A DNA stretch of 64,000 nucleotides from an uncultured Acidobacteriota bacterium (GCA_902825985.1 CADEDC010000026.1:1-64000); one strand, 5' to 3'; counted from the first letter of the stretch, positions 5,533-9,457 are shown. Translations and numbers: made by a program. The notes: generated from the letters alone by a model not told the origin.

Positions 5533-6701
5533 CCGCCCATCCGGCTGGCGACCCCTTCGTCGGCGTCGACCCGTCACTCGGTGTCCCGGACCACGGGCAG
5601 CTCCCAGGCCCGGACGGCCTGCGGCCACGCGGGTGGCGGAAGCTGCTGGTGTGGTCGCCGACGTCGGCGCCGCTGGCTCTCCTCCTGTTGGTCGGCATCG
5701 CGGCAGGCCCACGGGGCATCAACCTGCTGTCTGCCGCGACGCTGTCCCTGCTCGACCCGGTGGTGCCGGTGGCGCTCGCCGCCCTCGGCGTACTGGTTGG
5801 CCTGAGCGTGGGCGATCGCCGTACCGACCGCCGCCGGCTGTTCGCGGCCGCCTGTCTCGCCGCCGCCATCACCATCGTCATCGTGTCGGCTGGATTCGCG
5901 GTGCTGGCGCTCGCCGTAACGGCGGCGACGGCGCGGCCGTTCTGGATCCTCAGCCTGACGACCGGCATCTGCGCGGCCACGTCACTGACGTTGCCGGCCG
6001 GCAATCCGCTGGAACGCATGACGACCGCCGCCAGTCGCGTCGCCGAGCTCGGCGCCCTGCTCCCGATCGTGGCGGGTGGACTGATGATGGCGTCGCTGCG
6101 CGCCGGCTCCTCGCCGGGCAGCGCGGCCCTCCTGGCACAGGCCATCGGCGTGACGCTGGCGCTGGCGGCCGCCGCCTGGTTGCTGTTGACGCGCGCCTCC
6201 TCCGAAATCGAAGAGCGGATCTTCGCCGTGTCGGCGCTGCTGCTCGTCGGCGGTGTCGCGGATGCCCTCTCCCTGTCCGCCCTGTTCGGAGGACTGGCCG
6301 CCGGCGTGTTCTGGCGGTTTGCCGGCCGACACCCGCGCGAGACCATCGCACGGGACGTGCTGTTCGTCCAACACCCCCTCCTGGTGCTCGTGCTGCTGGT
6401 CGCCGGGGCACGGGCCGAGCTGTCGCCGGCGTCGCTCGCCCTCGGCGCCGCCTACGCGGCGCTGCGGCTGGCCGGACAGCTGGCGGGTGCCAGGCTCGCC
6501 AGCCGCATCGCACGGGCGAACGCGCCTGACGATTTCGCGGGCCATCTCCTCCCACCCGGCGTCTTCGGCGTCGCGTTCGCCCTGAATGCCCTCAGCGTCG
6601 TCGGGCCCGACGCGTCGCTGCTGCTCGCGATCGTCGTGGTGGGCACCGTCGGCGCCGAGTTCTTCGCCCATCTCCGGGTGCCGCGGCGGGTGGGCGCATG
6701 A
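5529..6701 (+). CDS. Antiporter-like polytopic membrane protein (CPA/Na+-H+ exchanger-like)
   Basis: The 390-residue product is almost entirely hydrophobic helices after a ~40-residue cytosolic N-terminus. It resembles a sodium/hydrogen-exchanger fold and the first half of the downstream fusion protein. In the stretch matching the SPT...LADL motif of that protein it has TSLTLPAGNPLERM and then AELGALLPIV, with no matching Asp, so it may be a transport-impaired or regulatory partner. It overlaps both neighbours by 4 bp (ATGA), marking a coupled three-gene operon. Family placement is moderately sure; ion specificity cannot be read. Confidence 0.7.
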   Translation: MTAHPAGDPFVGVDPSLGVPDHGQLPGPDGLRPRGWRKLLVWSPTSAPLALLLLVGIAAGPRGINLLSAATLSLLDPVVPVALAALGVLVGLSVGDRRTDRRRLFAAACLAAAITIVIVSAGFAVLALAVTAATARPFWILSLTTGICAATSLTLPAGNPLERMTTAASRVAELGALLPIVAGGLMMASLRAGSSPGSAALLAQAIGVTLALAAAAWLLLTRASSEIEERIFAVSALLLVGGVADALSLSALFGGLAAGVFWRFAGRHPRETIARDVLFVQHPLLVLVLLVAGARAELSPASLALGAAYAALRLAGQLAGARLASRIARANAPDDFAGHLLPPGVFGVAFALNALSVVGPDASLLLAIVVVGTVGAEFFAHLRVPRRVGA

Positions 6702-9457
6702 CCCGTCTGCTGGCGCTGGCGCTGGCGGTCGGCGCGATGGCCTCGGTACGCGAGCTCCGCATCCAGGGGACGGTCGGTTCGGCCGCCACCGCGCTGGCCC
6801 TCGGGTTCGCGCTGATGGGCGCCTCGGTCACCGGCGACGCGCTGCGACGGTTTCAGCTCCCGCGAGTGAGCGGCTACCTGCTGTTCGGCATCGTCGTCGG
6901 GCCGTCGCTGGGCAATCTGATCACCGAGTCGATGGCCGCGCAGCTGCAGGTGGTGACCGGCATCGCCACGACGCTCATCGCGCTCATCGCCGGTCTGACC
7001 TTGAGCGTCGAGCGCCTCGGGACCCGCCTCGCGGCGATTACCCGCATGACCGCCGCGACCCTGGCGGTGGCGATGGCCGGGCTCGCGGCCGCCGCCTGGG
7101 TGGTGTGGCCGTGGTTGCCGATCGCGCCCGATGCCACCGGTGCGCAGCGGCTGGTCATGCTGGCGCTGCTGGTCGTGATGGTCGTCTCGTTCTCACCGAC
7201 GATGACCGCGGCCGTAGTCGCGGATTCCGGGGCACGCGGCCGGCTGAGCGAGACGGTGCTGACGATCGTGGTGCTCGCCGACCTCGTGATGCTGGTGTTG
7301 TTCTCGGTGTCCATGCAGCTGGCGCGCATCGTCTTCGACACCGGCGACAGCCAGGGCGTCGAGGTGTTGCGGCGCCTCGCCTGGGAGATTGGCGGCGCCG
7401 TCGCGTTCGGCGTCCTGATCGGCGTCCTGTTCGCGCTCTACCTGCGGTATATCGCACGCGAAGTCACGCTCGTCCTGCTGGCGGTCTGTGCCGTGCTCAG
7501 TCAGGTTGGCACGACGCAGCAGCTGCAGCCGCTGCTGGCGGCTTTGGCGGCGGGCGTGGTCATCGAGAACCTGTCCGTCGCACAGGGTGACGCGCTGCGG
7601 GCCGCGGTCCGCCGCGGTGCGCCGCCGGTGCTGATCGTGTTCTTCGCCGCCGTCGGCGCCTCACTGCGGCTCGACGCCTTGGCCGCGATCGGGCTGAGCG
7701 CGGTCGCCCTGTCGGCGGTCCGGCTCGGCTTCATCAGGCTGGGCGCGCGCGCCGGCGTCAGGCTGTCCGGACTTCCCGAGCCGGTCGGCGGCTACGCGTG
7801 GACCGGCCTGGTCTCCCAGGCCGGCATCACGCTCGGGTTTGCCTCCGTCGTCGCGGCCGAGTTTCCCGGATGGGGCAACCAGATGCAGCTGCTGCTGGTG
7901 GCGTCGATCGCCATCCACGAGCTCGTCGGACCGATTCTCTTCCGCCGCGGCCTCGTCCAGGCCGGCGAGCTCGACGCGCACGTCCCGCGGCCGCTCGTCG
8001 TCGTGTCCAACCGCGAGCCGTACCTGCACAGCCAGGACGCGAACGGTCGCATCGTCGTGAAGCCCTCCACGGGCGGCGTCGCCGTCGCACTCGATGCCCT
8101 GATGCGCGAGCGCGGCGGCGTGTGGATCGCGCATGGCGCCGGCGCGGCGGACCGGCTGGTCGTCGACGCGAGCGACACGGTGCGCGTGCCGCCCGAGCAC
8201 CCGTCGTACGACCTGCGGCGCCTGTGGCTCGAGGAGCCCACCTTCTCTGCCTATTACGGCGGCTTCGCCAACGAGGGCTTGTGGCCCCTGTGTCACATGG
8301 TGGACGTCCGCCCGCAGTTTCGCAGCGAGGACTGGGCGGCCTATCAGGACATCAACGCGCGGTTCGCCGCCGCGGCGCACGCGGAACTTCGCGATTCCGA
8401 CTCCCCCGTCTTCATCCAGGACTACCACCTCGCCCTGGTGGCGCCGGCGTTGCGGGCCCTGCGGCCGGCGGCGCGCACCGCGCTCTTCTGGCACATCCCG
8501 TGGCCCTATCCCGATCGCCTGCGCATCTGTCCGTGGCGGCGTGAGCTGGTCGCCGGGCTGCTGGCCAACGACCTGCTCGCCTTCCAGCTGGAGCGCGACC
8601 GCCGCAACTTTCTCCTGGCCGTCGAAGAAGAACTGCACGCCGAGGTGGAGATCGAGTCGTCTCGCGTCCGCTTCCGTGGCCGCTCCAGCACCGTCGTCTC
8701 GGTCCCGATCGGGGTGGACTTCGATCGCATCCAGGCCTTCGCTGCCGATCCCGCCCTGCCGGCCGAGCAGCTCCGTCTGCGGGACCTGCTCGGACTGCGC
8801 GCCGAGGTCGTCGGGCTCGGAGTCGATCGCCTCGACTACACCAAGGGCATTCCCGAGCGCCTCGACGCGCTCGACACGCTCATGACGCAGCGTCCGGAAC
8901 TGCGCGGCCGCATGACCTTCGTGCAGATTGGGGTGCCGTCGCGGTCGGACCTCAAGAACTATGCGGCGATCGAGTCGGCCATCGGCGAGCGGGTGGAAAC
9001 GATCAATGCCCGTCATGCCGTGCCGGGCGGCGCCCCCGTGGTCGCCTACTACACGACGCCGCTCGGCGCCTTCAGCCTCGTGGCGCTCTATCGACTGGCC
9101 CACTTCTGCGTCGTCAGCTCGCTGCACGACGGGATGAACCTCGTGGCGAAGGAGTTCGTCGCGGCCCGCGACGATGAGCAGGGGGTGCTGGTGCTGAGCG
9201 CCCTCGCCGGCGCGGCCCAGGAACTCGACGATGCCGTCATCATCAACCCGTACGACATCGATGCCTTTGCCGCCGCGCTCGCGCGAGCCATCAGCATGAC
9301 GAGCGAGGAGCAGACGAGGCGGATGCAGGCGATGCGGAAGGTCGTTGCCGGCCGCAACGTCTTCAACTGGGCGTCCGATATCCTGGAAGGGCTCGAGAGC
9401 CTGTGGACCAGGCCGCTGCTCTATGCGGTCCGCGGCTGGGAGGAGACGTCGGTCTGA
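6698..9457 (+). CDS. Cation/proton antiporter fused to trehalose-6-phosphate synthase
   Basis: A single 919-residue frame with two complete modules. Residues ~1-425 form a polytopic CPA-type exchanger, with SPTMTAAVVADSGARGRLSE followed by VVLADLVMLVLFS, whose Asp fits the ion-binding position. Residues ~431-919 form a GT20 trehalose-6-phosphate synthase (UDP-glucose + glucose-6-phosphate to trehalose-6-phosphate). All key motifs are present: VVVSNREP, STGGVAVAL, IQDYHL (~572), FWHIPWPYP, GVDRLDYTKGIPERL (~707) and SLHDGMNLVAKEF (~807), so the enzyme should be active. No stop or frameshift separates the modules; the synthase would be tethered to the membrane at the cytosolic side. No trehalose-6-phosphate phosphatase lies in the window. 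The role is inferred to be osmotic or pH stress adaptation. Confidence 0.9.
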   Translation: MTRLLALALAVGAMASVRELRIQGTVGSAATALALGFALMGASVTGDALRRFQLPRVSGYLLFGIVVGPSLGNLITESMAAQLQVVTGIATTLIALIAGLTLSVERLGTRLAAITRMTAATLAVAMAGLAAAAWVVWPWLPIAPDATGAQRLVMLALLVVMVVSFSPTMTAAVVADSGARGRLSETVLTIVVLADLVMLVLFSVSMQLARIVFDTGDSQGVEVLRRLAWEIGGAVAFGVLIGVLFALYLRYIAREVTLVLLAVCAVLSQVGTTQQLQPLLAALAAGVVIENLSVAQGDALRAAVRRGAPPVLIVFFAAVGASLRLDALAAIGLSAVALSAVRLGFIRLGARAGVRLSGLPEPVGGYAWTGLVSQAGITLGFASVVAAEFPGWGNQMQLLLVASIAIHELVGPILFRRGLVQAGELDAHVPRPLVVVSNREPYLHSQDANGRIVVKPSTGGVAVALDALMRERGGVWIAHGAGAADRLVVDASDTVRVPPEHPSYDLRRLWLEEPTFSAYYGGFANEGLWPLCHMVDVRPQFRSEDWAAYQDINARFAAAAHAELRDSDSPVFIQDYHLALVAPALRALRPAARTALFWHIPWPYPDRLRICPWRRELVAGLLANDLLAFQLERDRRNFLLAVEEELHAEVEIESSRVRFRGRSSTVVSVPIGVDFDRIQAFAADPALPAEQLRLRDLLGLRAEVVGLGVDRLDYTKGIPERLDALDTLMTQRPELRGRMTFVQIGVPSRSDLKNYAAIESAIGERVETINARHAVPGGAPVVAYYTTPLGAFSLVALYRLAHFCVVSSLHDGMNLVAKEFVAARDDEQGVLVLSALAGAAQELDDAVIINPYDIDAFAAALARAISMTSEEQTRRMQAMRKVVAGRNVFNWASDILEGLESLWTRPLLYAVRGWEETSV

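Follow-up and report, generated by a model that had tools for sequence, protein, structure and literature searches.

A conserved acidobacterial fusion of an antiporter-fold domain to a GT20 domain of the trehalose-6-phosphate synthase type

The window analysed here is a stretch of 64,000 nucleotides from an uncultured Acidobacteriota bacterium (GCA_902825985.1, CADEDC010000026.1:1-64000). Positions 6698-9457 of its plus strand form a single open reading frame of 919 amino acids, with an ATG start, a TGA end and 0 internal stops, in which an antiporter-fold domain runs directly into a GT20 domain of the kind found in trehalose-6-phosphate synthases. This is a genuine antiporter::GT20 fusion, encoded as one polypeptide. 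The best explanation overall, to which we assign a probability of roughly 0.55, is a membrane-anchored trehalose-6-phosphate synthase that is also an antiporter protomer, pairs with an antiporter paralogue encoded immediately upstream (UPS), and ties osmolyte synthesis to ion or pH state.

Reading frame, junction and distribution

The features of the fusion gene, all on the plus strand, are as follows.

6698-7978, plus strand: CPA/NHA-type antiporter domain, residues 1-427, with 14 predicted helices (Pfam, AlphaFold2 model)
7184-7213, plus strand: VSFSPTMTAA (residues 163-172), the unwound-helix motif; it is conserved in the motif table, and the modelled helix is broken at 163-167
7274-7285, plus strand: LADL, residues 193-196 (motif table)
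7961-7993, plus strand: linker from the last membrane helix (ending at residue 421) to the first GT20 strand (residue 433), from model secondary structure
7991-9406, plus strand: GT20 trehalose-6-phosphate synthase domain, residues 432-903, predicted to be cytosolic (Pfam, PDB sequence matches, fold)

Both domains are recognized by Pfam well above the gathering cut-offs: Na_H_Exchanger at residues 48-413 (2.1e-22, 79.9 bits against 26.2) and Glyco_transf_20 at residues 433-900 (1e-109, 367.9 bits against 32.5), the latter covering profile positions 3-472 of 473. The AlphaFold2 model, built from a 54-row alignment (mean predicted local distance difference test score [pLDDT] 84, predicted template modelling score 0.67), shows 14 helices, the last ending at residue 421, and a GT20 fold from residue 433; the mutual placement of the two halves in it is unreliable. 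Approximately 10 residues link the antiporter to the GT20 domain, with pLDDT <50 at residues 426-430. The original prediction had described an antiporter domain of about 425 residues that continues unbroken into a synthase, with a junction near 7985, and all of this agrees with the single frame, the two Pfam domains and the modelled linker. Indeed, the observation is stronger than that prediction stated.

Across 162 genomes of the order, which is most likely Vicinamibacterales (Acidobacteriota; soil and groundwater bacteria), the search returned 27 full fusions, the window's own included, and 1 copy at a contig edge (G061), for a total of 28 genomes. The copies are 49-88% identical and have no stops inside, and genome G001 has an additional fragment that covers the junction (query residues 302-534). 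The junction motif GPxxFR...AGE...PLVVVSNREP has a length of 30-31 residues in 21 of 24 fusions, the other 3 being unparsed by the regular expression. The sign of two separate genes named at the outset was a junction interrupted by a stop or frameshift in other strains; the frame is open in all 28 genomes. Outside the order, 396 genomes sampled from the phylum yielded no full fusion at E<=1e-140, and none was found in the rest of the class; among the loci listed by a scan of public genomes, capped at 80, the only full fusions were in three Acidobacteria records. The original prediction knew of OtsA-OtsB fusions and of none between an antiporter and a trehalose-6-phosphate synthase; likewise, no description of one was found in the open-access (PMC) literature, a search that does not cover most subscription journals.

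The antiporter half and its operon partners

On the AlphaFold2 model, the antiporter half has an NhaA/NapA-like fold, with matches to NHA2 (Z 35.1) and NapA (Z 34.0); a sequence search of this half against the PDB gave nothing useful, and the fold search succeeded. The SPT...LADL region noted earlier is present at residues 163-172 and 193-196. Within it, D195 is the single candidate ion-binding Asp and is nearly invariant across the family, with Ala at the position where electrogenic antiporters carry Asp. NHA2 and NapA, which are CPA2-type Na+/H+ antiporters, share with the fusion their fold (Z 34-35), the broken helix with its SPT motif and an Asp in the next helix, but they have Asp-Asp in place of the single Ala-Asp, and the fusion adds a co-translated paralogue and a C-terminal enzyme. 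Similarly, KefC and SLC9C1 combine an antiporter with a soluble cytosolic C-terminal domain that could couple to transport. Their C-terminal domains, however, bind nucleotides or ligands, whereas that of the fusion is a complete biosynthetic enzyme.

Two genes precede the fusion in the operon.

4135-5532, plus strand: PDZ protein, first operon gene; the start codon is uncertain and the conserved region begins near 4230
5529-5532, plus strand: ATGA overlap of the PDZ gene and UPS (sequence)
5529-6701, plus strand: UPS, antiporter paralogue, second operon gene (profile match, model, motif table)
6698-6701, plus strand: ATGA, in which the stop of UPS overlaps the start of the fusion (sequence), indicating translational coupling

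UPS of the window has no Pfam match, but a profile comparison aligns it with the fused antiporter domain (probability 96.7, E 3e-10), and its model (pLDDT 85) has NapA as its best structural match; the gene at the UPS position of locus L170 matches Na_H_Exchanger at 6.8e-13. The order PDZ-UPS-antiporter is common to fused and unfused loci, in nearly all of which the PDZ gene lies ahead of the other two, and UPS overlaps the antiporter gene by 1 or 4 bases in 37 of 41 pairs, fused and unfused together. Besides its two PDZ domains, the PDZ protein has one N-terminal transmembrane-like segment and a degenerate HtrA-like region. It matches Pfam PDZ_2 (72.7 bits) and no protease domain, and its structural matches to the HtrA family (DegP, DegQ, AlgW) are confined to the PDZ part. 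The PDZ protein is also conserved with the antiporter pair where no GT20 domain is fused.

Comparison of transmembrane segment 5 suggests how the two antiporter-fold proteins are related. LDD stands at this position in each of the 11 unfused UPS proteins compared, and their antiporter partners read A, G or S followed by D. In the window, the LDD of UPS has become AELGA; the nearest fusion relatives have likewise lost the pair from UPS while the fused half keeps AD, and over the wider clade of the window 9 fusion loci show this loss from UPS. Conversely, UPS keeps LDD in G062 and G063, where the fused half has lost its Asp (UPS of G064, a third such genome, is not in the alignment). At least one partner retains the Asp motif in 16 of 16 fused pairs compared. 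Because the losses are complementary in this way, the simplest reading suggests that UPS and the fused antiporter form an asymmetric pair in which one working site may be enough, and UPS probably does pair with the antiporter half. The idea that one protein could sense and answer stress was therefore correct in placing both domains on one polypeptide but too simple in having it act alone, since the co-translated UPS and the PDZ protein are probable partners of the antiporter half.

The synthase half and its trehalose gene context

The GT20 half models as a trehalose-6-phosphate synthase fold (Z 43.8 to the mycobacterial enzyme, 5k44/5jij, by VIA-align structural alignment), and its PDB sequence matches are trehalose-6-phosphate synthases. 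Residues R10, G23, Y77, W86, D131, H155, R263, K268, R301, D362 and E370 (E. coli OtsA positions) are kept in 24 of 24 fusions, and all OtsA catalytic and glucose-6-phosphate-binding residues compared are intact. Judging from these residues and the near-full Pfam profile, the domain appears complete and catalytically intact, as originally predicted. OtsA (E. coli, 1uqu; M. thermoresistibile, 5jij) is like this domain in fold (Z 43-44) and in every catalytic residue compared. OtsA is, however, a soluble, stand-alone protein; the enzyme of the fusion makes up the C-terminal half of a membrane protein, and its score does not reach the curated cut-off for OtsA. The frame ends after the GT20 domain with no C-terminal trehalose-phosphatase domain; OtsA-OtsB (TPSP) fusions also contain a fused synthase, but their partner is that phosphatase. 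Because Lys and Arg counts in alternating loops of the antiporter half are 11.3 inside and 5.1 outside, the GT20 domain very probably lies on the cytosolic side.

Trehalose genes recur near the fusion in relatives. A Trehalose_PPase gene is present in 24 of 28 fusion genomes, compared with 0 of 5 genomes from the same family that lack the fusion. It lies near the fusion in 15 of the 24, and in some (L141, L142) it overlaps the fusion stop codon. Besides the window's own genome, G023, G048 and G062 are fusion genomes with no Trehalose_PPase match. In two f7 fusion loci (G052, G053), TreZ and TreY replace the PDZ gene at the start of the fusion operon, directly upstream of UPS and the fusion (L149:10438-15300; L150:10240-15133 (-)), which by gene content places two trehalose routes in one operon. 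In unfused G003, a GT20-phosphatase pair is divergent beside PDZ-UPS-antiporter. Since the phosphatase accompanies the fusion in 24 of 28 genomes and TreZ-TreY lie upstream in two, the trehalose link stands independently of annotation, as far as gene neighbourhoods can establish it. The fusion thus probably has a role in the trehalose pathway, and the trehalose-side function first proposed is supported by these neighbourhoods. The window genome has three GT20 genes, namely the fusion and two others, one of which adjoins a trehalose-synthase-like GH13 gene (identified by eye). A second genome of the window's genus, G037, also has no trehalose-phosphatase gene.

Proposed function, alternatives and origin

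Bacteria meet salt, drying and pH stress by ion movement and compatible solutes, usually with separate proteins. In the proposed mechanism, the membrane half of the fusion would be one protomer of a CPA/NHA-type cation/proton antiporter, and the PDZ - UPS - antiporter::GT20 operon would couple translation of both antiporter-fold proteins. UPS and the fused half would most likely form an asymmetric dimer with the ion-binding Asp on either protomer, carried by UPS in unfused relatives and in the fusions of family f11, whereas in the clade of the window it would be on the fused half. Trehalose-6-phosphate would be made by the GT20 domain in the cytosol, where UDP-glucose and glucose-6-phosphate are located, and a separate phosphatase, where present, would convert the product to trehalose. 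The likely purpose would be to tie osmolyte synthesis to membrane ion and pH state, with antiporter conformation as the input, in parallel with the two-helix, sensor-like modules of related synthases described below. We infer both ion transport and the direction of control; ion-gated synthesis of trehalose-6-phosphate is a plausible mechanism and the best supported. The more specific proposal, an asymmetric two-gene antiporter with the enzyme on one protomer, in which ion/proton exchange directly gates osmoprotectant synthesis, is held only tentatively.

Several observations weigh against this explanation. The GT20 half scores 414.8 bits with the NCBIfam OtsA model TIGR02400, below the equivalog cut-off of 564.85, and it is therefore classed by profile as a GT20 member and not as an OtsA equivalog. 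In transmembrane segment 5 the fused antiporter reads Ala-Asp, and not the Asp-Asp or Asn-Asp pair of characterized exchangers; for this reason the half is assigned, from sequence and model, to the Na_H_Exchanger fold family, and exchange by it is putative. In G062, G063 and G064 the fused-half Asp is lost (MQ, LE and LQ, respectively), so transport by the antiporter half is not strictly required for the fusion. The genomic link may partly reflect shared synteny. Finally, no trehalose phosphatase was found in the window genome (98% complete, 174 contigs) with either the family model or a relative's protein, the latter search lacking a positive control; the end product there, trehalose or trehalose-6-phosphate, is therefore uncertain.

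The antiporter fold could instead be a membrane anchor that tethers the synthase, for assembly with other trehalose enzymes, with no transport or signalling left. The three genomes that have lost the motif Asp with GT20 still intact fit this idea, as do the many related synthases that seem to be held by just two helices. However, the whole 14-helix fold, the SPT or SP motif and the Asp are kept in 14 of 17 fusions compared, and the PDZ and UPS partners in most; an anchor needs none of these, and we regard this alternative as rather unlikely. Control could also run in reverse, with the antiporter gated by GT20, acting as a regulatory domain that binds a metabolite, and with product formation secondary. 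CPA exchangers such as KefC, SLC9C1 and SOS1 usually carry a cytosolic regulatory domain at the C-terminus, and all three are among the structural matches found; the RCK domain of KefC and the cyclic-nucleotide domain of SLC9C1 offer parallels, and the order also contains an antiporter fused to an ion-channel domain. Nevertheless, all catalytic residues compared are kept despite up to ~50% divergence, GT20 is better conserved than the antiporter half in most of the distant fusions, and trehalose genes adjoin the fusion, all of which makes reverse control improbable.

It is less probable still that GT20 makes another phosphorylated glycoside, such as glucosylglycerol-phosphate. The unreached OtsA cut-off and the undetected phosphatase in the window genome would accommodate such a product, but the glucosylglycerol-phosphate synthase model gives only 269.7 bits (also below its equivalog cut-off) compared with 414.8 for OtsA, the OtsA residues that hold glucose-6-phosphate are kept, and phosphatase and TreZ-TreY genes neighbour the fusion in relatives. 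Lastly, both halves also exist unfused in the order, as a chance read-through or an assembly artefact joining adjacent genes would have it. The junction is open in 28 genomes at 49-88% identity with a near-constant linker length, and therefore does not hide a missed stop; a junction artefact is excluded on these grounds, and the chance of accidental joining is negligible.

If ion-tied synthesis is correct, a transporter-enzyme would both sense osmotic or pH stress and respond to it within a single complex, and one protein may physically connect ion transport with the synthesis of a stress sugar. The conserved fusion would offer a direct handle on how ion movement and solute synthesis are coordinated, and the UPS/antiporter pair, with its lineage-dependent Asp loss, a natural test of CPA exchangers as heterodimers. 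A near analogue is the OtsA of Arthrobacter, an osmotic stress sensor (PMC5685639). The trehalose synthase (TPSP) operon of Thermoproteus tenax includes a putative mechanosensitive channel (PMC3634074); there the channel is a separate protein, unlike the antiporter fused to the synthase here.

The GT20 halves of the fusions fall in a single clade together with the stand-alone GT20 genes found in the order, which are 61-69% identical to that of the window. In the trees, the f11 fusions lie apart from the main fusion clade, which would imply two fusions, although approximately unbiased tests do not reject a single fusion clade (p 0.52 for GT20 and 0.31 for the antiporter). The f11 fusion is located between SUF and menaquinone genes and the main fusion clade elsewhere, and this gene order hints that f11 may occupy the ancestral site.

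More widely, 57 of the 80 nearest public GT20 relatives, from 12 phyla, have an N-terminal open-frame extension of at least 200 residues with 2-3 hydrophobic segments. In seven (L040, L043, L050, L065, L068, L083 and L104), the extension is two-helix and sensor-like, with no Pfam model above cut-off; the arrangement is helix, ~130 residues, helix, linker and GT20, with weak CHASE8/Cache similarity below cut-offs in 2 of the 7. The GT20 domains of three of these, from Janthinobacterium (L104), Magnetospirillum (L068) and a Nitrospirota bacterium (L043), are 43-48% identical and likewise lie behind a membrane module, but theirs is the two-helix unit whereas that of the fusion is an antiporter. 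Membrane-tethered GT20 with an input-like module therefore seems, from these extensions, to be widespread, with the antiporter fusion as a variant of the theme. Given apparently anchored relatives in many phyla, membrane-based, signal-regulated synthesis of trehalose-6-phosphate may be common but overlooked.

In two genomes of family f11 (G070, G072; L170:2113-6018 (-) and L171:5756-9666 (+)), the same antiporter type is either joined to, or adjacent to and overlapping with, a stretch of ~630 residues of unknown type plus an Ion_trans domain. The Ion_trans domain, which is voltage-gated-channel-like, scores 118-120 bits, and the architecture recalls that of SLC9C1 but differs from it.

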